Assembly (NCBI GenBank): GCA_013360585.1
Contig: JABWBH010000038.1
Coordinates: 1-44,831 of the forward strand
DNA from: Phycisphaerae bacterium
Lineage (GTDB): Bacteria > Planctomycetota > Phycisphaerae > UBA1845
Direction: 5' to 3'
DNA: 44,831 nt
Shown: positions 4,272-31,383 of the stretch, piece after piece
How positions within the stretch are numbered: position 1 is the stretch's first letter
How the letters are laid out: every line of letters begins with the position of its first letter
Notes under the pieces: model-generated
What the model saw: the letters and a program-made list of their open reading frames with translations, nothing else
Database searches by the model: none
What the model was told of the DNA's origin: nothing
Made by a program: the position numbers and the translations under genes

Positions 4272-6683
4272 ATGCACATGACGAATCCTCCGACGAATTC
4301 CGCGTCACCGGCGCCGGTTGATCCGAGGGGCGGGCCTGATCAGCGGCAGGACGCACGGCCCGCGGCGGGCGGGCGTGGTGGCGGGAACCCGCTGGTCGCC
4401 TTGTTCAGCAACGTCTGGTTGGGTGTTTTCCTGATGATCCTGCTGTTCGTTTACAGCTCGGTCGGCAGCGCGATGCCCGAGTTCCGTCAGAAGCGTTTTT
4501 TTGAAATGACGGAGTTCGAGTGGTTTCACTGGTGGCCTTTCGATGTGCTGGTGGCGCTGATCTGCGTCAACATTCTCGTGGTGACGGTGCGTCGGATTCC
4601 GCTGCGGGTGGTGAACCTCGGGGTGTGGACGATCCACGCGGGGATTCTGATTCTCGCGGCGGGGAGCGTTTATTATTTCGGGACGAAGATCGAGGGTGAG
4701 GCGCCGGTGTACCGGCGGTGGTTGAAGATCGAGGCGCCGGGGATGAGTTCGCCGGGGGGGTTGGTGGTTCTTCCGGAGAACCGGACGACCGTGCAGACGG
4801 CGGCTGGGCTTTACACGCTGACGATTCAGGAGACGAACAGCGAGTACAAGCTGCTGTCCGGTCCGGACGCAGGGAAGCGCGCGCACGCGGTGACGGTTCA
4901 GGTTCAGCCGCCGCAGGGCGCGACGTTTTCGCGTCAGCTCCTGACGGGATATCCAGAGTTTACGGAGGATGTGATTCCGGGGCAGGGGCGCGCGATCAAG
5001 GTGACAGGCAAGGCGCTGGTGGACGAGGATTTGAAGCTGTCGCTGGAGTACGAGCCGCAGTCGTATTTTCACGTCAGCAGCTCCTGGGCCTTGTATGTCC
5101 GCGACGTCGGGGCGAAGGAGTGGGTCGAAGTCCCTTTGCCCGGGATGCCGCGCTACAACGAATACGTGTCGTCGCGCGATCAGGTGTTCACGGACGAGCC
5201 TTTGCCGCTGGACGCGATGGACCTGGCGGTGGCGTTGCCGGCGGAAGCGCGGCTGGCGGGAACGTCGTTCCACGTCACGGGCTACCTGCCTTATGCGGAG
5301 ATGCGTCGGCAGTGGCGCGAAGGCGGAACGCGGGCGAACCCGCTGCTGAAATTGAACTTCGTGGAGATGGGCGGTCGGCCGCGTCCGGTGGAGCTGCTGG
5401 CGCTGCATCCTGAACAGCGGAAGGCGATGGGGGGGCTGGTGGAGTTCCGCTACGTTCCGGACGAGAAGGCGCTGGAGGAGATCGCGTCGGATTCGTCGGC
5501 GTATTTGACGATTTCGGTTCCCGCGGCGGGCGTGAACCAGCGCTTGCGCGTGACGCAGGACCTGATGGTGGGCAACGACGGGCCGTGGACGGCGATCGAG
5601 GGGACGGAGTTCTCGTACCGTCTTGCGCGGGTGCTGGAGGATCTGGAGATCGCTCCGGGACGGATGGCGTCGCTGGCGTGGGTGGATCTGAAGACGGCGG
5701 AGAAGGAGTGGACCCGGGTGGTGCTGGACGATGCGTCGTCGTCGTTCGACCTTCCGGGGATCGGATTCGACCCGCACACGGCGCCGGCGCCCGGGGAGCG
5801 CACGACGGATCCGCGGATCGTGGTGGGATATGCGCCGTCGTCGGCGGGTCTGGTGTTTGCGGCGCTTCCGGACGGACGGTTGTTCGCGGCGTGGAACGGA
5901 CCGGACGCGCACGCCTTCCGTCGCTTCGTGCGGATCGGCGAGGCGCTGTCGCTGGCGCCGCAGGTGACGGTTGTTCCGACGTCGCTGCTCCTGACGGCGC
6001 AAGCGGAGGTGAAGCCTTATGTCGTGCCGATGTCCCGTCGGTCACGGGACGCCGGGCACATGTTCTCGATGATCAAGCTGGACATCACCAGCGGCGGAAA
6101 CACGCAGAGTAAGTGGCTGAGATACAGTCCGTTTTCGTTCCCCAGCGCGTTGTACGAGTACCCGGGTCGTCATCCGTATGAGCCGCAGACGGTGATGCTG
6201 GAGGGGGGGCGTCAGGTGGAAGTGTTGTTCTCGCGGGAGCGGGAGCGTCTTCCGGCGCCGGTGGCGCTGGATGATTTCGAGTTGATCGCGCACGTCGGAG
6301 GATATACCGGGCAAAGCCTGACGGTGCGGAACTGGCGCAGCGCGCTGCGTTTCTGGGACGGGGGCGCGTGGACGGCGCCGCAGACGGTAAGCGTGAATTC
6401 GCCCACGGAATACGGGGGATACTGGTATTACCAGGCGGCGTGGGATCCGCCGCTGCGCGGGCAGTTGGGCAGCGGGATGAATTACACGGTGCTGGGCGTG
6501 GGCAACCGCAACGGCGTGAACATCATGCTGGCGGGTTGCTGCCTGAGCGTGGCGGGGATGATTTTTGCGTTCTACGTGAAACCGCGGATCAAGGCGCGGC
6601 GGCGGGCGGCATCGGCGGCGCGTGGTGAGCGTCAGGAGGCGGAAACGCGCGAGGAGCGGATCGCGGAGCCGGTCGGGGTGTGA
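4272..6683 (+). CDS. resB: Cytochrome c biogenesis protein ResB (System II)
   Basis: 803 residues. ResB (Ccs1) works with CcsA at the membrane to deliver heme and attach it to the CXXCH motifs of apocytochromes c on the outer face. After a Pro/Gly-rich cytosolic N-terminus come three hydrophobic helices at about residues 41-66, 90-106 and 118-136. A very large external domain follows (about 140-745, with few hydrophobic stretches), then a last helix near 748-770 (IMLAGCCLSVAGMIFAFYV) and a charged tail. This arrangement is typical of ResB, though the external domain is long compared with the usual 400-600-residue members. The ATG at 4272 has a GAGG-AGAAGA leader; a second ATG two codons later is possible. 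ccsA follows on the same strand and would be the functional partner. Confidence 0.9.
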   Translation: MHMTNPPTNSASPAPVDPRGGPDQRQDARPAAGGRGGGNPLVALFSNVWLGVFLMILLFVYSSVGSAMPEFRQKRFFEMTEFEWFHWWPFDVLVALICVNILVVTVRRIPLRVVNLGVWTIHAGILILAAGSVYYFGTKIEGEAPVYRRWLKIEAPGMSSPGGLVVLPENRTTVQTAAGLYTLTIQETNSEYKLLSGPDAGKRAHAVTVQVQPPQGATFSRQLLTGYPEFTEDVIPGQGRAIKVTGKALVDEDLKLSLEYEPQSYFHVSSSWALYVRDVGAKEWVEVPLPGMPRYNEYVSSRDQVFTDEPLPLDAMDLAVALPAEARLAGTSFHVTGYLPYAEMRRQWREGGTRANPLLKLNFVEMGGRPRPVELLALHPEQRKAMGGLVEFRYVPDEKALEEIASDSSAYLTISVPAAGVNQRLRVTQDLMVGNDGPWTAIEGTEFSYRLARVLEDLEIAPGRMASLAWVDLKTAEKEWTRVVLDDASSSFDLPGIGFDPHTAPAPGERTTDPRIVVGYAPSSAGLVFAALPDGRLFAAWNGPDAHAFRRFVRIGEALSLAPQVTVVPTSLLLTAQAEVKPYVVPMSRRSRDAGHMFSMIKLDITSGGNTQSKWLRYSPFSFPSALYEYPGRHPYEPQTVMLEGGRQVEVLFSRERERLPAPVALDDFELIAHVGGYTGQSLTVRNWRSALRFWDGGAWTAPQTVSVNSPTEYGGYWYYQAAWDPPLRGQLGSGMNYTVLGVGNRNGVNIMLAGCCLSVAGMIFAFYVKPRIKARRRAASAARGERQEAETREERIAEPVGV

Positions 6684-6863
6684 GAAGGGAGACGGGACGG
6701 CTGAACTGGCGACGGGAAACAAGCCGCGCCGAGGGGCGATGCTCGTCCGATCGGTGCCCCGTGATCCGCGAACTGCGCACTACGCCCCGCTCGATTGCGG
6801 GCGCGGTTCGGATCAGGAGCGGTTGAGTTCGTCGCGGTTAGACGAGGGTGGGAGCGTCGTGAC

Positions 6864-8897
6864 ATGCAGGGAAGAATGCGAATCCGGTTGATCGACGTGC
6901 TGGTGTTCGGCGGTCTGATCGCGGCGGGCGGGCTTTACGGGATGAAGCGTCGGGCGGAGGCGTCGGCGGGAGCGTCGGCGCCGTCGGAGTTTGCGCGGGC
7001 CGTGGATCTTTCGCCGCTGCACGAGGTGGCGGTGCAGGCGGACGGGCGGTTGCGTTCGTTCGAGTCGCACGCGGCGGCGTACACGCGTTACATCAGCGGT
7101 CCGCGGACGATCGACGGTCAGTCGCAGGGATTCACGTACCTGGACATGCTGTTCCGCCCCGAGCGTTACAGCGCCTGCGAGACGGTGTACGTGAAGAATA
7201 AGCTGGTGCTGGCGCAGATTCTGGACGTCCTGGAGCAGCACGGGAGCGTCGCGCCGGGGGAGCGGGAGGCGTTGCAGACGCGGAAGCTGCTGTCTCCGAA
7301 GCATCTTAGCGACGGGGCGGTGCGTTCGCTGCTGGCGTCGTTAAGCGCGGACCTGGTGCGGACGGCGCGTCCGGTGCAGGACATCAACACGGCGCTGGCG
7401 ATCATGCGTCCGGACGTGCTGGGGGGCGAGCTTCGCATTCTTCCCGCGGCGCAGGGCGCGACGGACCGGCCGTGGAGTTCGTTGTGGGACGTGGTGGAGC
7501 AGGCGTCGACGCAGGCGGCGGATCTGTCGCCGCTGGCGAAGGCGGTGGGCGTCGAGGTGGACAAGCTTCAGGAGCTTGTCGTCGCGTGGACGGGGCTGGC
7601 GACGGCGTGGCGGACCGAGAAGGCGGACGAGGTGAACAAGGAGCTGACGCGCCTGGCGTCAGCGGTGCGTTCGCTCTCCCCCGAGGCGTATCCGGATGCG
7701 CGGCGGCTGGCGTGGGAAAGCTGGTACTTCCGGTTGAACAGCATGACGTGGGTCTGGCTGGTGTATCTGCTGTCGGTGATTCCGCTGCTGGTGGCGGTGA
7801 TCAACCGCTGGGAAGGGGCGAGGAAGCTGGGTCTGGCGATCTTCGGGATCGCGTTCTTGCTTCAGACGGCGTCGGTGGGGATCCGGTGGTACGTGTCGGG
7901 GCGCTGGCCGAACGCGAACATGTTCGAGGCGGTGACGACATCGGCGTGGTTCGGGGGCGTGCTGGCGCTGGTGCTGGAGTTCGTGGCGCGGCGGTCGGCG
8001 ATGAAGAATCTTTTCGCGCTGGGGTCGGCGGTGGTTTCGATGGCGGCGCTGATGTCGGTGTACCTGATGCCGGCGACGCTGGACTCTTCGCTGAATAACA
8101 TCATGCCGGCGCTGCACGATATCTGGTTGTACATTCACACGAATGTGATCATCTGGAGCTACGCGGTGATCGGACTGGCGGCGGTGACCGCGCTGCTTTT
8201 CCTGCGACAGCGGTGGTGTGCGTTGTGGGACGGAGGCGAGGCGTCGAAACTTCGCCTGCTGCTGACGCCGGCGGCGCTGGCGGCGCTGAACGTCACGGGG
8301 TGGCAGGTGCTGCTGGCGATCCTGAACCCTCAGGGGTACGACCTCCGCCGCTCGTTCTGGGCGGGGATGCTGGAGCGTTGCGGGTTCTCGGCGGCGACGA
8401 GCGCGGAGCTGGCGCCGTGGGTGGTGGTCGGATTGTTCGGGGTTTCGGCGACGATCCTCGTGTTCGAGTTGCTGGATGCACGAACGCGCGGCGCCGTGGT
8501 GAAGGACAACGAACTCGGCTACTTCGGGGCGCCGTCGGCGCTGCTGGCGTCCGGGCCGAAGGCGAACACGTTTCTGAAGAGTGCGCCGTCCGCCGCGCAG
8601 GTGTTCGACGCGGCGACGATGGTGACGCTTCAGCTTGCGTTCATCATGCTCTGGGCGGGCATCGTGATGGGGGCGATCTGGGCGGATCATTCCTGGGGCC
8701 GTCCGTGGGGGTGGGACCCGAAGGAAGTATTCGCGTTGAACACGTTCATCATCTTTCTCGTGCTGGTCCACGTTCGGCTGAAGGTGCGGGACAAGGGGTT
8801 CTGGACGGCGGTGCTGGCGATCTTCGGCTTCGAGACGATGATGTTCAACTGGATCGTCATCAACTTCATCATCAGCGGGCTGCACAGCTACGCGTGA
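6864..8897 (+). CDS. ccsA: Cytochrome c biogenesis protein CcsA/CcsB-type (System II)
   Basis: 677 residues. It is the heme-handling partner of ResB in System II cytochrome c synthase. One N-terminal helix (about 8-26) leads into a mostly polar outside segment (about 30-295). The C-terminal half carries multiple membrane helices with the family's heme-binding tryptophan-rich signature WGWDPKE at residues 615-621, flanked by ADHSWGRP and a final helix pair (FGFETMMFNWIVINFIISGL). Conserved histidines are seen near the helix ends, for example IHTNVIIWSYAVIG. The N-terminal extension is unusual in length; many CcsA proteins are near 300 residues. The ATG at 6864 was chosen because of the GGGTGGGAG leader and the immediate helix. 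The gene is 180 bases after resB, probably in the same transcript. Confidence 0.92.
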   Translation: MQGRMRIRLIDVLVFGGLIAAGGLYGMKRRAEASAGASAPSEFARAVDLSPLHEVAVQADGRLRSFESHAAAYTRYISGPRTIDGQSQGFTYLDMLFRPERYSACETVYVKNKLVLAQILDVLEQHGSVAPGEREALQTRKLLSPKHLSDGAVRSLLASLSADLVRTARPVQDINTALAIMRPDVLGGELRILPAAQGATDRPWSSLWDVVEQASTQAADLSPLAKAVGVEVDKLQELVVAWTGLATAWRTEKADEVNKELTRLASAVRSLSPEAYPDARRLAWESWYFRLNSMTWVWLVYLLSVIPLLVAVINRWEGARKLGLAIFGIAFLLQTASVGIRWYVSGRWPNANMFEAVTTSAWFGGVLALVLEFVARRSAMKNLFALGSAVVSMAALMSVYLMPATLDSSLNNIMPALHDIWLYIHTNVIIWSYAVIGLAAVTALLFLRQRWCALWDGGEASKLRLLLTPAALAALNVTGWQVLLAILNPQGYDLRRSFWAGMLERCGFSAATSAELAPWVVVGLFGVSATILVFELLDARTRGAVVKDNELGYFGAPSALLASGPKANTFLKSAPSAAQVFDAATMVTLQLAFIMLWAGIVMGAIWADHSWGRPWGWDPKEVFALNTFIIFLVLVHVRLKVRDKGFWTAVLAIFGFETMMFNWIVINFIISGLHSYA

Positions 8898-15494: not shown

Positions 15495-15745
15495 GCCCAA
15501 CTCCTTCGATCCGCCGCTCCGGCGCGCCTTTCCGGAAGGCGCCCGGCGACGTGATCCCACGTAAGCGGCGCATCCTAGCCCGAACCGGTTTGACCGTCAT
15601 GCGGCGCGGCGTCGGTGAAGAAGGGATGTCCGGGGGTGATCGGGGGAACCTGCGTCGGGGTCAGCGTTGCCGCGTTGCTCCGGCGTCGGGGCGCGGTTAC
15701 GCTCGTGTCGCCGTCGCGGCGGGCGGCGTGAGACGGGATACGAAC

Positions 15746-16528
15746 ATGCCGCTGACCTACTCCAGCTACCTTCACCTTGACGCAATGCTCGCGTTGCAAC
15801 AGCCGCGCTCCAGCCCTGCCGAGCACGACGAGATGCTCTTTATCGTGATTCATCAGGTGTACGAACTCTGGTTCAAGCTCGTGCTGCACGAAGTGGAGAA
15901 GGTGAAGTCGGATCTTTCCAGCGGACGCACCTTCGACGCAATACATACCTTCAAGCGTCTTCGGACGATCCTCAAGACGCTGGTCGGGCAGCTCGACATC
16001 CTGGAGACGATGACGCCGATGTCGTTCTCGAGCTTCCGCGACCGCCTGGAGACGGCCTCCGGGTTTCAATCGGTGCAGTTCCGGGAGCTGGAGTTCGTGC
16101 TCGGGTACAAGCGGCCGGAGACCCTGGGGTATCTTCCGCCGGATGCACGGGCGTCGGCGGCCTTGCAGCGCCGTCTGCGCGAGCGTTCGCTGGTCGATCA
16201 CTTTTATGATTTCCTGGAGTGTCACGGCATTGTCATTCCGTCGGAGGTGCGCGCCCGTCCGGTCGAGGCCTCGACGGTCGCGGACGAGCGCGTTCAGGAG
16301 GGCCTGCTGCGTCTTTACACGTCCTGCGGCGAACTGGCGATCCTTTTTGAGCTGATGACGGACTTCGACGAGGGGCTTCAGGAGTGGCGCTACCGCCACG
16401 TGAAGATCGTCGAGCGGACGATCGGCGCCAAGAAAGGGACGGGCGGGTCGCCGGGCGTGCCTTTCCTGAAGCAGTCGCTTTTCAAGCCCGTCTTCCCGGA
16501 CCTCTGGGCAATCCGTCACCGACTTTAA
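15746..16528 (+). CDS. kynA: Tryptophan 2,3-dioxygenase
   Basis: 260 residues. A cytosolic heme enzyme that opens the indole ring of L-tryptophan with O2 to give N-formylkynurenine, step 1 of the kynurenine pathway. Diagnostic motifs are HQVYELWFKLVLHEVEKV (active-site His36), SFSSFRDRL and SGFQSVQFRELEF with the substrate-carboxylate arginine, WRYRHVKIVERTIGAKKGTG with proximal heme ligand His218, and the following GGSPGVPFL. The length is slightly short of the common 270-290 because the N-terminus starts directly at LTYSSYLHLD. ATG 15746 is chosen over distant upstream starts whose extra 65 residues are Arg/Gly-rich and unlike the family. A partner enzyme, kynurenine 3-monooxygenase, lies 9 kb away at 25395. 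Confidence 0.96.
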   Translation: MPLTYSSYLHLDAMLALQQPRSSPAEHDEMLFIVIHQVYELWFKLVLHEVEKVKSDLSSGRTFDAIHTFKRLRTILKTLVGQLDILETMTPMSFSSFRDRLETASGFQSVQFRELEFVLGYKRPETLGYLPPDARASAALQRRLRERSLVDHFYDFLECHGIVIPSEVRARPVEASTVADERVQEGLLRLYTSCGELAILFELMTDFDEGLQEWRYRHVKIVERTIGAKKGTGGSPGVPFLKQSLFKPVFPDLWAIRHRL

Positions 16529-19989: not shown

Positions 19990-20625
19990 ATGAACCACGA
20001 GGAGAAGCTGGAGTCGTTGCGGCGGCAGATCCGGCAGTTGCAGGCGGAGGCGGCGGCGCTGGAGTCGACGCTTGCGGAGGGCGCCGGCGGGGGAGGCTGG
20101 GCGCCGCCGGGATATTACACGACGTATCACATTCTTGCGGGGATGGTGCTGGGTTTCATCGGGGCGGTGTCGAGCCTGATGTTCAACGTGGTGGGCGCGG
20201 CGATGCTCGGGCGACACCCGCTCCAACTGATCCAGGTGTACCTGACGTTTCCGCTGGGCGAGAAGGCGCTGACGCTGGATGACGGGTTCACGCTTGCGGC
20301 GGGGTGCTGTCTGTATCTTGGCACCGGCATGATCGGCGGGGTGCCGTTTCACCTGATTCTGAGCCGGTGGTTCGAGAGCGCGGGGTTGGGCAAGCGGTTT
20401 GTTGTGGCGACGGGGCTGAGTCTGGGGGTCTGGGTGGTGAATTTTTACGGCGTGCTTTCGTGGATGCAGCCGCTGCTGATCGGGGGGAACTGGATCGTCG
20501 AGCAGGTTCCGGTTTATGTGGCGGCGGCGACGCACCTGGTGTTCGGCTGGACGATGCTGCTGGTGGATGCGTGGGGGCGGTTCACGCCGCCGGCAGGTTC
20601 GCTGGCACGGAGGGCGCAGGCGTGA
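19990..20625 (+). CDS. Multi-pass membrane protein at the head of the cbb3 cluster
   Basis: 211 residues, no named family recognised. Residues 1-30 form a short coiled coil (EEKLESLRRQIRQLQAEAAAL). After GYYTTYHILAG come about four or five membrane helices, including GMVLGFIGAVSSLMFNVVGAAM, a Gly-rich segment LAAGCCLYLGTGMIGGVPFHL, and FVVATGLSLGVWVVNFYGVLSW, then a last helix near 180-200. Histidines are few (for example TTYHI, PFHLI, ATHLVFG) and could in principle bind heme, but no known heme site is evident. The start at 19990 has GGGAGCGG upstream and places the coiled coil first. The stop overlaps the GTG of the diheme cytochrome gene, so the two are co-translated and this protein is likely an oxidase accessory or docking subunit. 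Confidence 0.8.
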   Translation: MNHEEKLESLRRQIRQLQAEAAALESTLAEGAGGGGWAPPGYYTTYHILAGMVLGFIGAVSSLMFNVVGAAMLGRHPLQLIQVYLTFPLGEKALTLDDGFTLAAGCCLYLGTGMIGGVPFHLILSRWFESAGLGKRFVVATGLSLGVWVVNFYGVLSWMQPLLIGGNWIVEQVPVYVAAATHLVFGWTMLLVDAWGRFTPPAGSLARRAQA

Positions 20626-21662
20626 GGTGGAAGGCGGCGACAGTCGGGGTCGTGGTTGCGGCGGCGGCGGGCGCGGCGGGAGGACTTGGCGCGTGTTCCC
20701 GCTCCGCGCCGGACGTGGACACTTCCCGCCCGCGCGACGAGGGCATCCGCTTCACCAGCGTCGAGACGCTGGTGAAGGAGGGCGAGACGGCGTACGTGCG
20801 TCATTGCGTCGGGTGTCACGGCGCCGCGGGCGACGGGAAAGGCGAGGCGGCGACGTTTCTTTTTCCGAAGCCGCGGAACTTCACCTTGGCGCATTTCAAA
20901 TTCAGCTCCACGCGATCGGGTCGGTTGCCGACGGACGCGGACTTGAAGCGGTCGATCCGCAACGGGTTGAAGGGATCGGCGATGCCGGGCTTCTCCGCGC
21001 TGTCCGAGCGGACGCTGGACGGTCTGGTGGCGTACATTAAGACGTTCTCGCCGAAGTGGGCTTCGCAGGACACGGCGCCGCCGATCCCGATCCACGAAGA
21101 CCCTTACCGGTCGAACCCGGACAAGACGGAGGCGATCCGGCGGGGCGAGGTCGTGTACCACGGATACGTCACGTGCTGGAGCTGTCACCCGGCGTACGTG
21201 TCGACGGAGAAGATCAACGAGTACCTCGTGGCGTGCGGCAGCGAGTCGCGCAGCGGGTTCCGCCCGAACCTCGACGGCGTCGAGGTCAAGCCGAACGTTG
21301 AGGGCGAGCTGGTGTATCCGACGGATTTCCGGCGAGACTTTGTGCGCTCGGGCAGCCAGATCGACGACCTGTACCGGGTGATTTCGGCGGGTTTGACGGG
21401 CACGGCGATGCCGACGTGGGTGGACGCGATGCACGTGGCGGCGAAGGAGCCGGGCGGTCCGCCGCTGGTTCAGCCGTCGGATCTGTGGGCGATGGCGTAC
21501 TACGTTCAGGATCTGATCGCGCAGCGTCCGCCGAAGCTGAAGGAGGGCGCGTACGCGCTGCGGTCGCGTCCGCAGTGGATCAGCCTGACCGGCGAGCCGG
21601 CGCCCGCGCCGCCGACGGAGAAGCAGGACGCGGAGGCGGTGGAATTCATCGAGGACGAGTAA
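20622..21662 (+). CDS. Diheme cytochrome c lipoprotein of the cbb3 cluster
   Basis: 346 residues starting with GTG in a GTGA overlap with the upstream gene; GGAGGG lies before it. The lipobox GLGAC places Cys25 as the lipid anchor. Two c-type hemes are predicted: CVGCH at residues 62-66 with distal Met121 (SAMPGF), and CWSCH at 185-189 with distal Met263 (TAMPTW). The second domain carries an insertion of about 50 residues between heme motif and ligand (around NEYLVACGSESRSGF to DFRRDFVRSG). The acidic C-terminus is Pro/Glu-rich. In cbb3 oxidases the diheme subunit CcoP passes electrons to CcoO. No canonical CcoP is present here, so this lipoprotein may take that place (inference). It needs heme attachment by the ResB/CcsA type system. 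Confidence 0.9.
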   Translation: MRWKAATVGVVVAAAAGAAGGLGACSRSAPDVDTSRPRDEGIRFTSVETLVKEGETAYVRHCVGCHGAAGDGKGEAATFLFPKPRNFTLAHFKFSSTRSGRLPTDADLKRSIRNGLKGSAMPGFSALSERTLDGLVAYIKTFSPKWASQDTAPPIPIHEDPYRSNPDKTEAIRRGEVVYHGYVTCWSCHPAYVSTEKINEYLVACGSESRSGFRPNLDGVEVKPNVEGELVYPTDFRRDFVRSGSQIDDLYRVISAGLTGTAMPTWVDAMHVAAKEPGGPPLVQPSDLWAMAYYVQDLIAQRPPKLKEGAYALRSRPQWISLTGEPAPAPPTEKQDAEAVEFIEDE

Positions 21663-21697
21663 GGCGCGGGTTGAGCGTCTGCGAAACCGCGGGAGGA

Positions 21698-21754
21698 GCA
21701 CTTCCTTGACTTTGCTTCGCGACATCAAGGACGGGCGCGTGCGGCTCGGCTTTG
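21698..21754 (+). repeat. Modular dispersed repeat, long form
   Basis: GCACTTCCTTGAC, then the core GCTTCGCGACATCAAGGAC, then GGGCGC and GTGCGGCTCGGCTTTG. It sits between the diheme cytochrome gene and ccoN. Confidence 0.8.
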
Positions 21755-21842
21755 ATGCGGAGTCAAAGGATCGGCGAAGCGTGAGGCGAGTGCGATCCGT
21801 CGGGGTGCGGGGGCGGTTCCGAGGCGAGTTGGAAGGCGAAGC

Positions 21843-23282
21843 ATGAGTGTCATTACGGCGTCATCGGGTGCGATAAATGTTCCGGCGCTGGCGGCGGGTC
21901 GCGCGTTGATCGAGACGCGGCTGGTGTGGTGGTATTTCGCGGCGTCGCTGACCTACATGATCGTGGCGATGCTCGCGGGTTTTTTGTTCTCGCTCCAGTT
22001 TCTTCAGCATTATCCGCTGGCGGGGATTGAGTTGTTTTCGCCGGGGCGGTGGCGGCTGGTGCATACCAACGGCGTCGCCTACGGATTCATCGCCAACGCC
22101 TTTCTGGGAATGCTGCACTGGGCGGTTCCGCGGTTGACGCTGCGTCCGGTGCGGGGGCGTGGGCTTTCGTACTTCATTTTCTTTGCGTGGCAGGCGGTGG
22201 TGCTGGCGACGGTGGTCGGGCTGCTGACGGGTCAGGCGCAGGCGGTGGAGTGGGGCGAGACGCCGACGTGGGTGGACCCGGTGGCGCTGGCGGGGCTGAT
22301 CCTGGTGGCGGTGAACTTTCTGCACCCGATCCTTCAGGTGCAGGGCCCGATGTATGTCACGCTCTGGTACTACGTGGCGGCGTTCGTGTGGACGGTGCTG
22401 GTGTACGCGATGGGGAGCTTCCTTCCGCAGTATTTCGTCGGCGGGGCGGCCTCGGGGGCGATCATCGGGTTGTTCATTCACGATCTGGTGGGGTTGTTCG
22501 TGACGCCGCTGGGGTGGGGGATGATGTACTACTTCGTCCCGATCCTTCTGAAGAAGCCGGTGTGGAGCCACGGATTGTCGCTGGTAGGGTTCTGGGGGCT
22601 GGCGTTCTTCTACCCGCTGACGGGGATACATCACTTTCTTTACAGCCCGATCCCGATGTTCCTCCAGTACGGGGCGGTGATCTCGACAATCGCCGTGGAG
22701 CTGGTGGTCACGACGGTGATCATCAATTTCTTCATGACGCTGCGCGGGCGCGGGGACGCCTTGCGGACGAACCTGCCGATCCGGTGGTTTTACACGGGGA
22801 TGGTGTTCTACTTCACGACGTGTCTGCAATGCGCATTTCAGGCGACGCTGACGTTTCAGAAGATCATTCACTTCACGGACTGGGTGGTGGGGCACTCACA
22901 CCTGGTGATGTTCGGGGTCTTCGGGTTCTGGCTGCTGGGGATGATGACGCATCTGATTCCGCGGCTGGTGGGCGCCGGGGGGTGGTTCCGTCCGTCGTGG
23001 AATGCGTGGCATTACTGGTTGAGTACGATCGGGACGCTGGTGATGTTCTTCGATCTGGTGATCGCGGGGCTGATCCAGGGATTTCAGTGGCGGGATCTGG
23101 CGCCGTGGGAGGACTCGCTGGTGGCGTCGGCGCCGTTCTGGCTGACGCGTGCGGTGTCGGGAACGATGATCATCGTGGGGCAGTTTTTCTTTGCGGCGAA
23201 CGTGGTGATGACGATGTTGCGGCGGCCGGCGGGCCACGGCGCTTCCGCGGGGGAGTCGATGAGCGAGGCGGCGGCGATCTGA
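21843..23282 (+). CDS. ccoN: cbb3-type cytochrome c oxidase subunit I
   Basis: 479 residues, about 12 membrane helices. It is the catalytic heme-copper subunit that reduces O2 to water and pumps protons. Ligands expected for cbb3 are visible: low-spin heme His74 (RLVHTNGVAYGF) with His353, high-spin heme His351 (HFTDWVVGHSHLVMFG), and Cu-B ligands His213 (FIHDLVGLF), His263 and His264 (GIHHFLY). Tyr257, six residues before His263, is at the position of the cross-linked active-site tyrosine of cbb3 enzymes. The sequence around these residues is diverged from proteobacterial CcoN (IHD instead of GHN, HHFLYS instead of HHLHYT). The ATG at 21843 follows GGAAGG. CcoO follows directly; the usual CcoP is missing. 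Confidence 0.94.
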   Translation: MSVITASSGAINVPALAAGRALIETRLVWWYFAASLTYMIVAMLAGFLFSLQFLQHYPLAGIELFSPGRWRLVHTNGVAYGFIANAFLGMLHWAVPRLTLRPVRGRGLSYFIFFAWQAVVLATVVGLLTGQAQAVEWGETPTWVDPVALAGLILVAVNFLHPILQVQGPMYVTLWYYVAAFVWTVLVYAMGSFLPQYFVGGAASGAIIGLFIHDLVGLFVTPLGWGMMYYFVPILLKKPVWSHGLSLVGFWGLAFFYPLTGIHHFLYSPIPMFLQYGAVISTIAVELVVTTVIINFFMTLRGRGDALRTNLPIRWFYTGMVFYFTTCLQCAFQATLTFQKIIHFTDWVVGHSHLVMFGVFGFWLLGMMTHLIPRLVGAGGWFRPSWNAWHYWLSTIGTLVMFFDLVIAGLIQGFQWRDLAPWEDSLVASAPFWLTRAVSGTMIIVGQFFFAANVVMTMLRRPAGHGASAGESMSEAAAI

Positions 23283-23337
23283 GGCGGTGTTGCGTCTGAA
23301 AAGCGCGGTCCGTGTTCAAGGCTCGCGGACTTGCGGA

Positions 23338-23367
23338 GCGCTTCCTTACGGGTGCGGCTCGGCTTTG
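23338..23367 (+). repeat. Modular dispersed repeat, short form
   Basis: GCGCTTCCTTACG is joined directly to G-GTGCGGCTCGGCTTTG, sharing both flanks of the 21698-21754 copy but lacking its core. It lies between ccoN and ccoO. Confidence 0.75.
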
Positions 23368-23402
23368 TACGACGGGAGGCACGGGCGTGATGGGGATCGG
23401 TG

Positions 23403-24110
23403 ATGTTTGAAACCAAGTCGGGCGTGTTTGCGATTGCGGGGCTGGGCTTTTTTGTGCTGGCGTTCCTCGTGATGGGGCTGCTGCCGTGGCTGATCTACGT
23501 GGATCAGCCGGAGCTGACGGTCGAGCAGATCGCGGAGCAGGGGTTGCTGCACGAGTTCGTCGAGCTTCATGAGCGTTTTCCGGCGGAGTTCGAGAGGTAC
23601 TTCGGGGGGCCGCCGAGCAAGGAGAATTTTGCGGCGGCGCTTCGGCGGGGGCACGAGGTGTACGTCGGCGAGGCGTGCTGGCATTGTCACTCGCAGCAGG
23701 TGCGTCCGGTGTCGCGGGAGAGCGAGCGGTGGGGTCCGGTGTCGCACGCGAGCGAGTATCAGAATGAGCTTCAGCGCCCGGTGCTTTTTGGGACGCGGCG
23801 GGTCGGACCGGACCTGTCGCGGGAGGGGGCGCGGCGGACGAATGACTGGCATCTGGCGCATTTCTACAACCCGACGAGCGTCGTACCGACGACGGTGATG
23901 CCGGTGTACACGTGGTTCTTCGACGAGCGGGGATACCCGAACCGTGACGGCATGAGCATCATCACCTATGTGCAGTGGCTGGGGAGCTGGCTGCCCGAGT
24001 ATCCGTATTATTACGGGGAGGGTCCGCCACAGTTGACGCCGCCGACGCGGGGGGCGCAGGACGGCGTGGCGCAGGGGCCCGGGCGCGACGACGACGGAAG
24101 GGAGGGATAA
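23403..24110 (+). CDS. ccoO: cbb3-type cytochrome c oxidase subunit II (monoheme)
   Basis: 235 residues. One N-terminal membrane anchor (about 8-32) precedes an external cytochrome c domain. The heme motif ACWHCHSQQVRPV (Cys92, Cys95, His96) matches the CcoO hallmark CxxCHSQ-x-RP. It is followed by SERWGPVSHASEY, TRRVGPDLSREG, NDWHLAHFYNPTSVVP and the distal ligand Met166 in TVMP, all in family order. It carries electrons to CcoN. An insertion-like tail after the WLGSWLPEY segment is Pro/Gly/Asp-rich. A GTG lies directly before the chosen ATG at 23403. It is downstream of ccoN and 5 bases before the next small gene, so it is clearly in the operon. Confidence 0.95.
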   Translation: MFETKSGVFAIAGLGFFVLAFLVMGLLPWLIYVDQPELTVEQIAEQGLLHEFVELHERFPAEFERYFGGPPSKENFAAALRRGHEVYVGEACWHCHSQQVRPVSRESERWGPVSHASEYQNELQRPVLFGTRRVGPDLSREGARRTNDWHLAHFYNPTSVVPTTVMPVYTWFFDERGYPNRDGMSIITYVQWLGSWLPEYPYYYGEGPPQLTPPTRGAQDGVAQGPGRDDDGREG

Positions 24111-24115
24111 GCGAC

Positions 24116-24433
24116 ATGGCGGCGGTCATTCGGAAGGCGACGCGTGGGCAACGGTGGGTCGTCTGGGGGCTGACGATCGGGATTCTTGTTCCGGCGTCGC
24201 TGGGGTTCGGGACGAAGATTTACGAGTTTGTCCGCGTGGTGCTCAGCGAAGGGGGGACGGAGTTCACGCTGATTCCGCTGGCGAATTATTTTCTGGCGAC
24301 GCTGGGGTTTGTGTGCCTGATGATCTGGGCGGTGCTGCACGGCATGTTCCAAGACGTGGAGGCGCCGAAATACACGATGCTGGAGCAGGAGGAGCGCCTC
24401 GAGGCCGGCGAAAAAGCGGGGAAGCAGACATGA
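24116..24433 (+). CDS. Small two-helix membrane protein of the cbb3 cluster
   Basis: 105 residues. Two membrane helices are predicted, about 13-36 (WVVWGLTIGILVPASLGFGTK) and about 56-78 (LANYFLATLGFVCLMIWAVLHG), with a charged C-terminus (EQEERLEAGEKAGKQ). No known oxidase subunit is recognised. Position and size suggest an accessory or assembly subunit in place of CcoQ/CcoH-type proteins. The start has GGGAGGG upstream. The stop overlaps the next ATG (ATGA), so translation is coupled to the 55-residue protein that follows. Confidence 0.8.
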   Translation: MAAVIRKATRGQRWVVWGLTIGILVPASLGFGTKIYEFVRVVLSEGGTEFTLIPLANYFLATLGFVCLMIWAVLHGMFQDVEAPKYTMLEQEERLEAGEKAGKQT

Positions 24434-24597
24434 GTCTGAAGGTGGAGCCTTCGGCGGCGGCGGAAGACCGTCAGTATCACACGTACACGACGCACCGCAT
24501 TCCGTGGTACGTGCGTCTGATGTGGGTGGCGTTCTGGGTGGCGATGATCTGGTATATCCTTGCGTACGCGGTTCCGGCGGCGAAGACGTACTTCTGA
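24430..24597 (+). CDS. 55-residue single-helix protein, last gene of the cbb3 cluster
   Basis: A short gene starting in an ATGA overlap with the previous stop. The product has a polar N-terminus with HTYTTHRIP, then one membrane helix (WYVRLMWVAFWVAMIWYILAY) and a short tail AVPAAKTYF. The aromatic-rich helix and the position after ccoN and ccoO are like small cbb3 subunits such as CcoQ, though I see no diagnostic identity. It is the last gene of the cluster, 75 bases before a convergent gene. Confidence 0.8.
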   Translation: MSLKVEPSAAAEDRQYHTYTTHRIPWYVRLMWVAFWVAMIWYILAYAVPAAKTYF

Positions 24598-25023: not shown

Positions 25024-25394
25024 GCACCTTGCCTGAGCCACGAGTTCGCCTCTCCTTCCGGTCCCGGGGGCGACATCACCCGAGACGCCCCTGCTTCGCA
25101 TTCTACCCACGAAACCCCGGAAGGTCGCGGCGAGCGTGACGGTGCGAAGCTTCGGTATCAGTCTTGCTTCAATCGGTCAGCGGGTATCGCGCTTGCGTGG
25201 ATCGAAACCCGCGCTATGCTCGCCCGTGGGGTCTGAAAGTCGTCATGCGCGGCATGTGGGCGAGTTAAAACCGCGATGTCCGGACGATGGCGCCCCGCCT
25301 CCCGGCGGGCGCGTCTCGGGTTTCAGACGACGCCGCGTGCGCGAGTCGGTTTGACGGCATCAAGCGAAGTTGGCGGAGGCCGCGGGAAGCAGTG
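25024..25394. other. Divergent intergenic region upstream of kmo
   Basis: 371 bases without a supported gene. A weak promoter-like pair, TTGCGT (25193-25198) and TATGCT (25215-25220) with 16-base spacing, points toward kmo. No operator palindrome was noticed. Confidence 0.4.
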
Positions 25395-26741
25395 ATGTCC
25401 AGCCAGAGGCGTTCTTCAGAAGCTCCTCGCGGGTTCACGATCGTCGGCGGCGGGCTGGGCGGGGCGTTGATGGCGATCACTCTGGGGCGCGACGGGTACG
25501 ACGTGGACCTGTATGAGCGGCGCGGCGACCCGCGGTCCGGGAAAGTGGACGCGGGGCGGTCGATCAACCTGGCGATTTCGGTGCGGGGGATTGAGGCGTT
25601 GCGCGGCGTCGGGCTTGCGGAGGAGGTGCTGAAGCGCGCCGTGGCGATGCGCGGGCGGATGATTCACGGCGTCAGCGGAGACGTGGTGTACCAGCCTTAC
25701 GGCGTGCATCCGGATCAGGCGATCAACTCCGTCTCGCGCAAAGACCTCAACGTGACGTTGATCGAAGCCGCTCGGGCGATGCCGAACGTCCGCGTTCACT
25801 TCGATCACAAGTGCGTCGGCGTGGATCTTGAGACCGGGCGGGCGCGCTTTCATCGCGGGACCGACGGCGAAAGCGTTGAGACCGCGCCGGGAGTCGTGAT
25901 CGGGTCGGACGGGGCGTTCTCGGCGGTTCGGGCGGCGATGCAGCGACTCGACCGGTTCGATTACAGTCAGAGCTACCTCGCGCACGGGTACAAGGAGCTT
26001 TCGATCCCGCCCGGAGCGGACGGACGTCACCGCATCGAGCGGAACGCGCTGCACATCTGGCCTCGAAAGTCGTTCATGATGATCGCGCTGCCGAACATCG
26101 ACGGGTCGTTCACCTGCACGCTGTTCTGGGCGCACGAGGGAGAGAACTCCGCCGCGGCGGTGCGCACCGATGATGAGGTTCGCCGGTTCTTTGATCGCGT
26201 GTTCCCGGACGCCGTGCCGCTTATGCCGACGCTGACTGAGGATTTTCGCAACAACCCGAACCCTTCGCTGGTGACAATCCGCTGCCGTCCGTGGCACTAC
26301 CGGGACAAGGTGGTGTTGCTGGGGGACGCGGCGCACGCCGTGGTGCCGTTTTACGGTCAGGGGGCGAACTGCGCGTTCGAGGATTGCCCGGCGCTTCGGG
26401 ATTGCCTTCGCGGCTCGCCGAAGGATCTGGGGGTCGCCTTCGCGGAATACGAGCGGCGTCGCAAGCGCCACGCGGACGCCCTGGCGGACCTGGCGATCGG
26501 GAACTTTCTTGAGATGCGTGACAAGACGGGGTCTCGCGTGTTTCTGATGAAGAAGAAGGGGGAGAAGCTGCTGCACCGCCTGCTGGGCGACGCCTACCTG
26601 CCGCTGTATTCGATGGTGTCGTTTTCGACGATCGCGTACGCGGACGCGGTGGAGCGTGCGCGGCGGCAGAACCGGCGGCTGGGTGCGGCGGCGGCGGCCG
26701 TCGTGTTGCTGCTGATTGTGCTGCTGCTTGCGGCGGCGTGA
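25395..26741 (+). CDS. kmo: Kynurenine 3-monooxygenase with C-terminal membrane anchor
   Basis: 448 residues. An FAD enzyme that hydroxylates L-kynurenine with NADPH and O2, step 3 of the kynurenine route toward quinolinate/NAD. It has the FAD loop IVGGGLGGALMAI (about 16-28), DAGRSINLAISVRGIEALR typical of KMO, then HKCVGVDLETG, GSDGAFSAVR, and the second FAD motif GDAAHAVVPFYGQGANCAFED from residue 310. The C-terminus has a hydrophobic tail (about 427-447, AAAAAVVLLLIVLLLAAA), which would tether the protein to a membrane as in mitochondrial KMO. The ATG at 25395 is chosen because an upstream extension is Arg/Ala-rich and unlike the family. Tryptophan dioxygenase is at 15746. No kynureninase or 3-hydroxyanthranilate dioxygenase is in the window. 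Confidence 0.95.
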   Translation: MSSQRRSSEAPRGFTIVGGGLGGALMAITLGRDGYDVDLYERRGDPRSGKVDAGRSINLAISVRGIEALRGVGLAEEVLKRAVAMRGRMIHGVSGDVVYQPYGVHPDQAINSVSRKDLNVTLIEAARAMPNVRVHFDHKCVGVDLETGRARFHRGTDGESVETAPGVVIGSDGAFSAVRAAMQRLDRFDYSQSYLAHGYKELSIPPGADGRHRIERNALHIWPRKSFMMIALPNIDGSFTCTLFWAHEGENSAAAVRTDDEVRRFFDRVFPDAVPLMPTLTEDFRNNPNPSLVTIRCRPWHYRDKVVLLGDAAHAVVPFYGQGANCAFEDCPALRDCLRGSPKDLGVAFAEYERRRKRHADALADLAIGNFLEMRDKTGSRVFLMKKKGEKLLHRLLGDAYLPLYSMVSFSTIAYADAVERARRQNRRLGAAAAAVVLLLIVLLLAAA

Positions 26742-27524: not shown

Positions 27525-28332
27525 GAGCGGGACATCGTCAGGGAATTGCAGGTCCGACGGTGCCTTCTCGACAACGGCGCGGCGGGCTTGCGTCCTTCTG
27601 TCCCCCCCTCGCCGCAGGATCGCGCCACGTAAGTTCATGTGATTCCAACCCCCCGCAACTGGAGCCGGGTGGAGACTCGGGAGGGAACCAGTCGAGACGA
27701 GGATCTCCCCCGAAAAGGTCGGCGGGCCAACCCGGTCGAAAACCACCCGCAGGCAACGCCCGCGCTACAGCACTCAGAAGAAGTTTGTTCAGGGTTTGGC
27801 GGCAGGGGTTTGCGGCGAATTAATCAGGTTATCCGCCGCGTCGGGAGCGTACGCAGCGTACGCGTGAGACCTTGCGGGGTTGAATGAAGTCCCTAAATCC
27901 GTGAGGGAATCCGTTAATTTTCCTTGAATTCCGTGTGAACGTCTGTTAGAAGCGCGCTGTCCGCAACAGCGAGGAGGGCGGCGAGGTGTGCAGCGAGCGG
28001 ACATCTCGCGGTTGGCCGCGTGTCGCGACATTCGGCGGGCAGACGCACAGGGAGACGCCGATTGCCCGTCGAAGGCCGTTTGCGCCGAGTCCCTATCCTT
28101 ATCCTTTTTTTCATGACTTAGGCGCCCGAGTTCTTCTCCGTGCGCGTGCCCGGAGTCCACCGACGAGGGCGCGGATCGGATGCTCCAACGACGGCGCGGG
28201 GAAAGTCTCCGGCGTCCCTGCGTCACAGGCGTGACATGTGAAGGTCGCCCCCGACGAACATTCGATCCCCGCGCCGCGGGTCCGCTCTCGGCGCGGTGAG
28301 ACGCAGGCAGAGCGGACCACGAAGGAGCGAGC
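27525..28332. other. Long intergenic region, no gene recognised
   Basis: 808 bases, the longest gene-free stretch of the window. Open frames here are short and look like composition artefacts. Two copies of the self-complementary GCGTACGC lie near 27847-27863, and one promoter-like pair is at 27924-27952. A T-rich stretch with TATCCTTATCCTTTTTTT lies near 28095-28111. A non-coding RNA or long 5' leader of the next gene is possible but not shown. Confidence 0.5.
27924..27952 (+). promoter_or_regulatory. Possible sigma-70-type promoter
   Basis: TTGAAT and TAGAAG with 17-base spacing, each 4 of 6 to consensus, lie in a locally A+T-richer patch. It is about 380 bases before the secreted-protein gene at 28333. 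Confidence 0.3.
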
Positions 28333-29298
28333 ATGAAACGTTTTCATATTCTCATTGCGATCGCGGCTGCGCTGGGCGGGGCGCGCCTTTCCGCGCAGGA
28401 TTTCTCGGACAATTTCGATGCCTACGCGACGGGCAATCTCTGCACCCAGAGCACGTGGGTGGAGTGGTGCGGGAGTTTTGACGTGTGCGGCGAAGTCTCG
28501 ACCGAGCAGGCGCACAGCGGGTCGAACTCGCTGAAGCTGGTCGGCAACGTTGGCGGCGGCGGCGGGCTGGGCGACGACACGGTGCATACGTTCGATGTCG
28601 CGGGGGGGCAGTGGACCTTCACGGCGTGGACGTATTGCCCGAGCGACATGGTCGGAGCGGGGTTCATCATCCTGCTGAACACGTATCCCCTGGACAACTG
28701 TCCGGGGGGCAACAACTGGTCGCTGCAGGTGTGGCTCGACGGCGACCTGAGCACCGTCCACGCGGACTTCACCGGTGAGCAGCTTCCTTTGATCCGCGAT
28801 CGGTGGGTCGAGTTCCGGGCGGAAATCGACCTGGATAATGACGTCGTGGATTACTACTACGACGGCGTGCAATTTGTCTTCGGCAAGTCGTGGATCGACG
28901 GGATCAGCGGCGGAGGTCAGCCGACGATCCAGGCGCTTGACCTTTACGCGGGCGAGCCGACGTTCTTCGGCAGCAGCGGGCACTACATTGATGACGTGTC
29001 GCTGGTGGAAGCCGGCGCCGACGTCTGCCCCGACGGGGCCGCGGTGAAGGCGAAGTACAAGGATGACGGTAATCCGGGCGCCGACACGGTGGCGGTGACG
29101 CTGACGAACCACGTGCCGAACACGGAGTATGTCGTGCAGATCCGGGACGGGAACAACGTCGTCGCCGAGCGGACGATCACGACCAAGTCCACCGGCAAGG
29201 GCAAGCGGAACTTCACGGACCTTCCGTGCGGACCGGCGTACAAAGCGTTCAACGTCACCTGCGACCTGAACAAGAAGGTCAAGGGCGACTGCCTGTAA
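28333..29298 (+). CDS. Secreted beta-sandwich protein of unknown function
   Basis: 321 residues. A clear signal peptide (residues 1-21, ending RLSAQ) exports it. Residues about 23-230 have the look of a concanavalin/LamG-like jelly roll: DNFDAYATGNLC, then SGSNSLKLVGNVGGGGG, WTFTAWTYCPSDM, NNWSLQVWLDGD, DRWVEFRAEIDLDNDVVDYYYDGV and GHYIDDVSLVEA. This is the pattern of domains that open with a glycine-asparagine stretch and close with an Asp-Asp-Val strand. Residues about 235-321 are a second small beta domain (TVAVTLTNHVPNTEYVVQIRD) with cysteine pairs. It has no catalytic motif and may bind polysaccharide. The RBS GAAGGAGCGAGC is strong. No operon partner. Confidence 0.8.
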   Translation: MKRFHILIAIAAALGGARLSAQDFSDNFDAYATGNLCTQSTWVEWCGSFDVCGEVSTEQAHSGSNSLKLVGNVGGGGGLGDDTVHTFDVAGGQWTFTAWTYCPSDMVGAGFIILLNTYPLDNCPGGNNWSLQVWLDGDLSTVHADFTGEQLPLIRDRWVEFRAEIDLDNDVVDYYYDGVQFVFGKSWIDGISGGGQPTIQALDLYAGEPTFFGSSGHYIDDVSLVEAGADVCPDGAAVKAKYKDDGNPGADTVAVTLTNHVPNTEYVVQIRDGNNVVAERTITTKSTGKGKRNFTDLPCGPAYKAFNVTCDLNKKVKGDCL

Positions 29299-29475
29299 TC
29301 GCCGCATCGATCGACGGAATGCCGCGCTCCGGAGCGCCTCTCCGGATCGCGGGTTCCGGATCGGTCGGACGATGCCCCGCCGAATCCGCGCGCCACGTCG
29401 GCGCGCGAGATCCGGAAGGACGAGGATCGCTTGCGAGCCGAGCGCGCCCTTGACGTCGAGATCGAGGGGGGATGA

Positions 29476-29545
29476 AGAAGCGCCTACTTATCGTCGACTC
29501 CTGACCTTGTTCTGCAACGTCAAGGACAGGGAGGGGCGGGTTGGT
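29476..29545 (+). repeat. Modular dispersed repeat, long form, diverged copy
   Basis: GAAGCGCCTACTTAT, a spacer, then TTCTGCAACGTCAAGGAC and AGGGAGGGGCGG, in the gap after the secreted-protein gene. The core is identical over GCAACGTCAAGGAC to the 9078-9140 copy. Confidence 0.75.
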
Positions 29546-29559
29546 TGCGGGGCGCGGCG

Positions 29560-29889
29560 TCAGCGCCAGGGGCGTGCGCCGTCGCGATCGTCGTCGTCGT
29601 CGTCGTCGTGGAGTCCGTCCTCGTCTTCCGCGGCGCGCTTCCAGGTGTCGGCCTGATCTGCCTCGTCGAGTTCCCGCTCCATGTGTTTCATCATGCGCTC
29701 CTGAAGCGGCGCGATTCTGCGGTGCAGATCGAGGAGGGCCTCGTAACTGCGGTGCAGTTGATCGAGGCGCAGGAACTGCCACTTCAACAGGCATTCCGGC
29801 TCCTTGATGGCGCCGAAGGGATCGCATGTCAGGACCGGCCGGCCTTTGCCGTCGCGGCTGAAGTACTCGCAATTCTCACATTGCAACAT
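29560..29889 (-). CDS. Short CxxC protein, likely metal-binding, planctomycete-type
   Basis: 109 residues. The start MLQCENCEYFSRDGKG with CxxC is followed by LTCDPFGAIKEPECLLKWQ, giving four cysteines in a Cys-x2-Cys ... Cys-x10-Cys arrangement that could bind zinc. The middle is helical (LDLHRRIAPLQERMMKHM). The C-terminal tail has seven aspartates in a row, coded by a run of GAC/GTC trinucleotides at 29588-29605. From memory, similar short proteins with the CENCEYF and IKEPEC pattern occur in planctomycetes, which is one basis for the taxon guess; the function is unknown. ATG 29889 has GGGAG-TGA upstream. It is divergent from the TPR gene that starts at 30136. Confidence 0.8.
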   Translation of the reverse strand: MLQCENCEYFSRDGKGRPVLTCDPFGAIKEPECLLKWQFLRLDQLHRSYEALLDLHRRIAPLQERMMKHMERELDEADQADTWKRAAEDEDGLHDDDDDDDRDGARPWR

Positions 29890-30135
29890 GATGGCGGTCA
29901 CTCCCGGGGCGTTTCCGCGCTCCCCGACCTCCGATAACCCCCCTGATTGTAGCGTCAATGACAGCGAAAGTCCCCGGAAATCGTACTGGTGCGATGCATG
30001 TCGAGACGGGCGACGGCGTGCGTGGCGTAGCGGGCGTCTTTCGGTCGTCCTGCGGCGCTAAGCCGGACCGGGAATCTCTCGATAGAGAAGTGACCGGCGA
30101 CGCTGCGCGCGGACCGGTCGGAAGGGAGGCCTGTG

Positions 30136-31383
30136 ATGGCGTCGTCGTTATCGAAACCGATGTCGGCTCCGAGGTCGATCGAGGGCGCGAATTCTGCGCC
30201 TCAGGAAACGCACGAGCGAGGGGCTGAGGCGTCCTCGCCGATCCGGGCGCTGATGCGTCTTCAGAACCTGTACCGGGCGCAGGATCTGGTGCGGCGGGGG
30301 GTGTGCCTGATGAACGCCGGACAGATCGAAGCCGCGGAGCGCTGTCTTCGTGAAGCGATGAACCTCGCGCCGCGGGAGCGATCGCCGGCCGAATGCCTCG
30401 TGGCGGCGTACCGTGAGGAGCGACCGGAGGCGACCGAGGCTGCGTCGGCGGCGCATGCACGGACGTCGGCGCGGGTCCGGTTGGCGTGGTTGCTGCATGA
30501 CGACGGGCGCGGGGCGGACGCTCTGCGGACGCTGCGTGAGGGCATCGCCGAATCCCCGGAGGATGCCGAGCTTCAGCACCAGCTCGGGTTGATGTTGGCG
30601 ACGCGCGAGGAGTATGAGGAAGCGGAAGTCCGCTTCACGCAGGCGGTCACGCTGGACCGCGACCGGGTGGAGTCCTGGGTGAACCTGGCGATGTGTCAGG
30701 GCGTGTCGGGACGAAGCGCTGACGCGGTGCGCAGCCTGCAACGGGCCCAGCGCATTCATCGTCACGACGCGAGGATCACGCTGCTGCTGGCGCAGGCGTT
30801 TCAGGCTGCGCGGGCGCAGGGCGCTGCGGTGCGGATGACGCCGGCTTATCCGGTGACGGAGGTCGCTGAGGACGGCGAGGAGATCGAAGCTCTGGCCGGG
30901 ATCGTCGAGCGGGACGCGGAATTCGTGGACGCGCTGCTTTCGCTGCCGGCGTCTTCCACGGATGCGCGGGTTTATGCGCTTCTGGAGGCGGCGCTGCGAG
31001 AGGCGCTGAAGCGTCGTCCACATCACGCGGATCTGCATTACCACCTGGGTCGAGTGCTGAGTCGGCTGGGGCGGAATGACGAGGCGATCACGGAGGGTGA
31101 GCGTGCGGTTGCGCTGGATTCTCGTCACACGCGGGCGCTGATCGACCTGGCGCGGTGGTACCGGTCGGCCGATCGCCGGGAGGAGGCGGTGGACCGGCTT
31201 GAGAGGGTCATCCGCGCTGGTTTCGAGTACCCGGACGTGTACCGCGACCTGGGCGAGCTGCACCGGGAGCGGGGCCGGACGCTTCAGGCGAGAAGCGCCT
31301 ACCGCCGCGCACTGGCGTTAAAGCCCGACGACGCGGAATCCCTGGCGGGGCTTGCGGCGCTGACGGGGGCGGTGGGCGACTGA
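30136..31383 (+). CDS. TPR protein (first of three)
   Basis: 415 residues. No signal peptide or enzyme domain. After a low-complexity N-terminus (about 1-45) it is made of helical repeats, among them EAAERCLREAMNLAPRER, DALRTLREGIAESPEDAELQ, EAEVRFTQAVTLDRDRVESW and, near the C-terminus, HHADLHYHLGRVLSRLGRN with EAITEGERAVALDSRHTRAL. These units match the TPR consensus (W/LG/Y/A/P). It likely acts as a scaffold in the cytosol. The gene is 11 bases before a second TPR gene, so the two should be co-transcribed. A GTG directly before the chosen ATG is an alternative start. Confidence 0.8.
   Translation: MASSLSKPMSAPRSIEGANSAPQETHERGAEASSPIRALMRLQNLYRAQDLVRRGVCLMNAGQIEAAERCLREAMNLAPRERSPAECLVAAYREERPEATEAASAAHARTSARVRLAWLLHDDGRGADALRTLREGIAESPEDAELQHQLGLMLATREEYEEAEVRFTQAVTLDRDRVESWVNLAMCQGVSGRSADAVRSLQRAQRIHRHDARITLLLAQAFQAARAQGAAVRMTPAYPVTEVAEDGEEIEALAGIVERDAEFVDALLSLPASSTDARVYALLEAALREALKRRPHHADLHYHLGRVLSRLGRNDEAITEGERAVALDSRHTRALIDLARWYRSADRREEAVDRLERVIRAGFEYPDVYRDLGELHRERGRTLQARSAYRRALALKPDDAESLAGLAALTGAVGD

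Follow-up and report, generated by a model that had tools for sequence, protein, structure and literature searches.

The cbb3-type enzymes are oxidases of high affinity that serve bacterial respiration of oxygen traces, and CcoP is usually counted among their three defining subunits. Divergent cbb3-like enzymes without a separate CcoP are already known from Nitrospina: the cbb3-type oxidase of Nitrospina gracilis displays glycine in place of Trp203 and is a three-subunit fusion, and similar residues are found in Sinorhizobium (PMC3578206). In authentic cbb3 enzymes a glutamate is mandatory in the active centre, and an “unknown group” of COX1 proteins is credited to Muntyan et al. 2015 (PMC5492636). 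This is probably the same group as the one analyzed here, a C-like lineage that lacks that glutamate. A further described system concerns Kustc0457 of Kuenenia, a diheme protein that serves as redox partner to an octaheme HAO-like enzyme, the latter being proposed to reduce nitrite to NO (PMC6423088).

The window, that is, the whole stretch of DNA that we analyzed (44,831 nucleotides, positions 1-44,831 of contig JABWBH010000038.1), belongs to the draft genome of a Phycisphaerae bacterium (UBA1845; GCA_013360585.1; 97% complete, 84 contigs). Six co-directional genes lie at 19990-24597 in the order A-B-N-O-S-q, where A and B overlap by GTGA, S and q overlap by ATGA, and the gap between O and S is short:

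19990..20625, + strand: A (P0001), 211-aa membrane protein of an orphan family, without Pfam or NCBIfam match
20622..21662, + strand: B (P0002), diheme c-type cytochrome with lipobox (Pfam Cytochrome_CBB3, 3.5e-15)
21843..23282, + strand: CcoN (P0003), catalytic subunit of the Gln-type group (Pfam COX1, 1.6e-57)
22827..22829, + strand: codon of CcoN Gln329, which aligns with P. stutzeri Glu323 (3mk7_A and relatives)
23403..24110, + strand: CcoO (P0004), membrane-anchored monoheme cytochrome c subunit (Pfam FixO, 1.1e-33)
24116..24433, + strand: S (P0005), two-helix protein, CcoS/FixS-like in its second half (Pfam FixS, 24.1 bits)
24430..24597, + strand: q (P0006), 55-aa single-helix protein, without Pfam match itself

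A sequence-only reading of this locus had described, besides ccoN and ccoO, a diheme lipoprotein-type cytochrome upstream of ccoN that is GTGA-coupled to a multi-pass membrane protein, and a two-helix and a 55-residue protein downstream. All of these are borne out by the ORFs, together with two CXXCH motifs (CVGCH and CWSCH) and a lipobox (LGAC) in B and one CXXCH in CcoO. The cluster is flanked by genes that by eye resemble those of tryptophan 2,3-dioxygenase and kynurenine monooxygenase (15551-16528 and 25287-26741).

Alignment of CcoN to the P. stutzeri protein shows that the metal ligands and the active-site tyrosine are all kept, as had been claimed, with H74, H213, H263/H264, H351, H353 and Tyr257 corresponding to P. 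stutzeri H60, H207, H257/258, H345, H347 and Tyr251. The heme and CuB ligands and the cross-link tyrosine are invariant through the window's lineage, and a COX1 fold with all six His ligands and a cross-link tyrosine in helix VII places the protein within the C family. Also retained (P. stutzeri numbering) are Glu122, Glu125, Tyr223, Ser240, Asn289 and Tyr317, the last four of which we take to be the C-family proton path. In contrast, four positions that are fixed in the canonical sequences compared are altered, namely Glu323 to Gln, His243 to Gly, Tyr237 to His and Trp203 to Gly. The first three changes are constant in the window's lineage and the fourth is nearly so, and the changes at 323 and 243 are shared by nearly all other non-canonical relatives examined. 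Given that positions 323, 243 and 203 are fixed in canonical cbb3, the activity of the enzyme may differ from that of the canonical form. The NCBIfam ccoN equivalog TIGR00780 matches CcoN with only 191.8 bits, against a cut-off of 583, and in a 59-sequence tree with an arbitrary root the canonical CcoN proteins split off with 100/100 support on a branch of 1.81 changes per column. By its sequence, therefore, this CcoN is part of a group separate from canonical cbb3. A second COX1 protein is encoded on another contig of the window genome. In a different genome (locus L091, G064:C128, 6953-8347), a second CcoN-like protein next to a CcoO has Ser-Leu instead of the CuB His pair at 257/258 and a very long branch, and may have lost CuB.

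We analyzed the surroundings of this CcoN type in a sample of 246 genomes of the phylum, 97 of which have a CcoN homologue, about 25 of them with at least roughly 50% identity to the CcoN of the window. The neighbourhoods of these approximately 25 close types mostly hold B-N-O-S-q in order, with A in a part of them only. Scanning 84,980 species yielded 302 relatives, of which the best 80 were used for gene order; these are the closest relatives, nearly all Planctomycetota (including Bythopirellula polymerisocia, Lacipirellula limnantheis, strain Pan216 and Aquisphaera insulae), so that the counts that follow have little bearing on deeper branches. Among these 80, 63 loci from other species had enough flank: all 63 contain N, O, S and q, with the FixO/CcoO monoheme subunit adjoining CcoN in each, while A is found in 61 and B in 60. 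Two orders are fixed, BANOSq (38/63) and ABNOSq (20/63). Such a recurrence of S and q in the same position of every locus indicates that they are not chance ORFs, and the extra genes are indeed kept beside this ccoN type, as was to be checked in other genomes. The suggestion of a distinct subunit plan is thus well supported by gene order across dozens of species, and, as read from these sequences, the module is a genuine variant within the C-family oxidases, conserved in dozens of planctomycete species. Of the 80 loci, 66 have a gene for a CcoI-type copper ATPase beside the cluster and 37 have one for a DsbD_2 protein, which fits the maturation of a cbb3-type enzyme; the best CcoI match in the window genome (45% identity) is unlinked to the cluster. 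Elsewhere in the window, 4272-6683 and 6795-8897 encode two large membrane proteins that by eye resemble ResB and CcsA of System II cytochrome c maturation. In another genome (84% complete), a truncated copy of A adjoins a q gene that runs in the opposite direction (L025, G225:C28, 7393-7969), and no CcoN was found there.

The absence of a canonical CcoP near the cluster, asserted by the sequence-only reading, extends to the genome searches. The profile of its N-terminal anchor, FixP_N, had no match in the 97% complete window genome even at E <= 10, although the Caulobacter positive control matched, and TIGR00782 gave nothing above the ccoP cut-off; the FixP_N result is the stronger one, since TIGR00782 matches were sub-threshold in all genomes checked, canonical ones included. 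In the phylum sample, FixP_N exceeds its cut-off in 39 of 246 genomes and in 0 of the 25 with this CcoN type, where chance co-occurrence would give approximately 4. A membrane protein combining a FixP_N anchor with a heme c domain was thus found neither in the window genome nor in the others of this type, and the pairing of a normal ccoP with this ccoN type, which would have spoken against the proposal, did not occur among the 246 genomes. These searches bear on the idea that the locus encodes a standard cbb3 oxidase with its ccoP merely relocated in the genome, and with A, S and q as unrelated neighbours. A draft in 84 contigs leaves room for this in principle, but the lack of matches above the cut-off with either profile led us to reject an unlinked canonical ccoP, and the conserved six-gene order and the distance of CcoN from canonical cbb3 make this explanation very improbable. 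The canonical CcoP proteins that we collected from planctomycetes (loci L101-L103 and L221-L247) harbor one CXXCH each (29/29).

Part of what CcoP provides may be found in q. In profile-profile comparison, q matches canonical FixP_N with 75%, while controls remain at or below 4%, and 5 of 23 q homologues match FixP_N in Pfam, the best with 3.3e-7; P0006 alone gave no match to FixP_N, so that the 75% relies on profiles and divergent relatives. These results suggest that q is likely the equivalent of the CcoP N-terminal membrane anchor. The second half of S, following an extra N-terminal helix, carries a FixS motif just over the Pfam cut-off (24.1 vs. 23.1 bits) and matches canonical FixS in profile-profile comparison with 94% (controls at most 5%). 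Moreover, in genomes of this type the placeable FixS matches fall only within the S gene itself (G065 and G207), suggesting that S is probably their CcoS. Hence, of the “three unassigned membrane subunits” noted earlier, A alone stays an orphan, while S is CcoS-like and q probably corresponds to the CcoP anchor.

The diheme cytochrome B has Kustc0457 as its closest solved relative (6h5l_B, profile E 3.5e-75), followed by CcoP chains, and its fold agrees with that of Kustc0457 at a TM of 0.85 on the target. A strict interpretation of B as the split-off heme domain of a canonical CcoP is unsupported, because Kustc0457 is closer and the planctomycete CcoP domains are monoheme. The redox-partner role of Kustc0457 is consistent with electron transfer by B. 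Related Gln-type oxidases have a CcoO that continues into a B-type diheme unit (217 columns, 100% profile match), an arrangement also present on Sinorhizobium pSymA, which ties this cytochrome functionally to the oxidase. Taken together, B probably serves for electron entry in place of the heme domain of CcoP. The link to Kustc0457, whose HAO-like partner is proposed to produce NO, also raises the possibility that NO is the main substrate, or that the enzyme scavenges O2 and NO, with B partnering nitrogen-oxide chemistry, and the glutamine at canonical Glu323 would be compatible with this. We consider it unlikely, given that the lineage invariably has the cross-link tyrosine that is a hallmark of O2 reductases, that CcoI copper ATPase and CcoS-like genes accompany the cluster as in cbb3, and that the conserved neighbours showed no NO-related gene. 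Elsewhere in the window genome, one long ORF (L027, G000:C43, approximately 28300-30800) encodes two B-related cytochrome c domains; a fragment of a CcoI-like ATPase lies nearby, where the contig ends.

The AlphaFold2 model of A (mean pLDDT 86) shows an N-terminal helix followed by four long helices. No recognisable family was found in Pfam or NCBIfam and nothing in Foldseek at E <= 0.001; the best VIA hits, Insig and FtsX (Z 6.0), fall within the range common for helical bundles, and we claim no family for A. Its near-invariant residues include T86, F87, T112, G113, Q160, P161, H182 and F185. A is found in 10 of the 246 genomes sampled from the phylum, and 9 of these 10 also have this ccoN type; its presence throughout the lineage is ruled out by its absence from a deeper clade. 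We regard A as a candidate extra subunit or assembly factor. That it is missing from part of the lineage and variable in position would also fit an enzyme whose core consists of CcoN and CcoO only, with B, a separate lipoprotein-like cytochrome, as a diffusible donor and with A, S and q as assembly factors outside the mature enzyme, a role that the resemblance of S to a maturation factor would suit. However, q is no less constant than N and O, and relatives have the diheme unit in covalent fusion with CcoO, so that we give such a minimal core a small, though appreciable, chance, above that of NO as the substrate.

Compared with the canonical CcoNOQP enzymes (P. stutzeri 3mk7, and the planctomycete ones with fused CcoNO and CcoP), the module has in common the CcoN ligands, Tyr251, Glu122/125, CcoO, and CcoS-like and CcoI-like genes. 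It differs in lacking a CcoP with FixP_N, in having a separate diheme B (the canonical planctomycete CcoP being monoheme), q and A, and in the four CcoN substitutions. Its CcoO is recognised by NCBIfam as a ccoO relative, with 107.9 against an equivalog cut-off of 200.7. The module shares with the oxidases of Nitrospina gracilis and Sinorhizobium pSymA the Trp203 to Gly change, the lack of a separate CcoP and the diheme module, fused behind CcoO in those enzymes; unlike the module, these have fused subunits and an extra His202/Tyr208 beside CuB. The pSymA oxidase further resembles it in the Gln for Glu323 and in the DsbD_2 and CcoI genes downstream. On this symbiosis plasmid (Sinorhizobium meliloti, CP140882.1; L282, 5965-12674), a row of genes encodes first a Gln-type CcoN and a fusion of CcoO with the diheme unit, then two tiny hypothetical proteins, and finally DsbD_2 and a CcoI-like ATPase. 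We saw no A at this locus, and the two tiny ORFs, of 74 and 40 residues, were rejected as homologues of q and S, as their matches were not significant. Kustc0457 is of the same diheme family as B but has an octaheme HAO-like enzyme, rather than an oxidase, as its partner. In the literature that we searched, which left most subscription journals outside, we found neither the six-gene plan nor A nor the q/S pair described, and a prior description is possible.

Based on these comparisons, we propose that the locus encodes a split-subunit cbb3-like oxidase in which the jobs of CcoP are shared among separate small proteins, a scheme to which, as a whole, we give a probability of roughly 60%. In this model, whose substrate, electron path, affinity and complex membership we infer from the genes, B would receive electrons from the respiratory chain and hand them on to the heme c of CcoO. 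They would then pass via heme b to the heme b3/CuB site in CcoN, and O2 would there be converted to water with the help of the conserved cross-link tyrosine. The single helix of q would pack on CcoN/CcoO where the CcoP anchor otherwise sits and thereby stabilize assembly. S, being CcoS-like, and CcoI would serve maturation, and A would be a further membrane component, either a subunit or an assembly factor, perhaps the anchor for B. Ahn and colleagues reportedly found in 2015 that the two helices of CcoP alone suffice for assembly in V. cholerae (cited in PMC9109917).

A more far-reaching interpretation, which we put forward tentatively and hold to be rather less probable than the scheme above, is that the module represents a separate class of C-family oxidases, widespread in Planctomycetota, with an obligate subunit set of its own that includes A as a four-helix integral subunit from no known family, with a lipoprotein diheme cytochrome and an anchor of one helix sharing the function of CcoP, and with altered active-site surroundings (Gln323, Gly203 and Gly243) that change the proton or redox chemistry. 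A lineage without CcoP would show which functions of this subunit, i.e., anchor, assembly and electron entry, are separable, and enzymes that naturally have Gln for Glu323 and Gly for Trp203 would probe residues thought to be essential in canonical cbb3. The related oxidase of Sinorhizobium pSymA is tractable in the laboratory.
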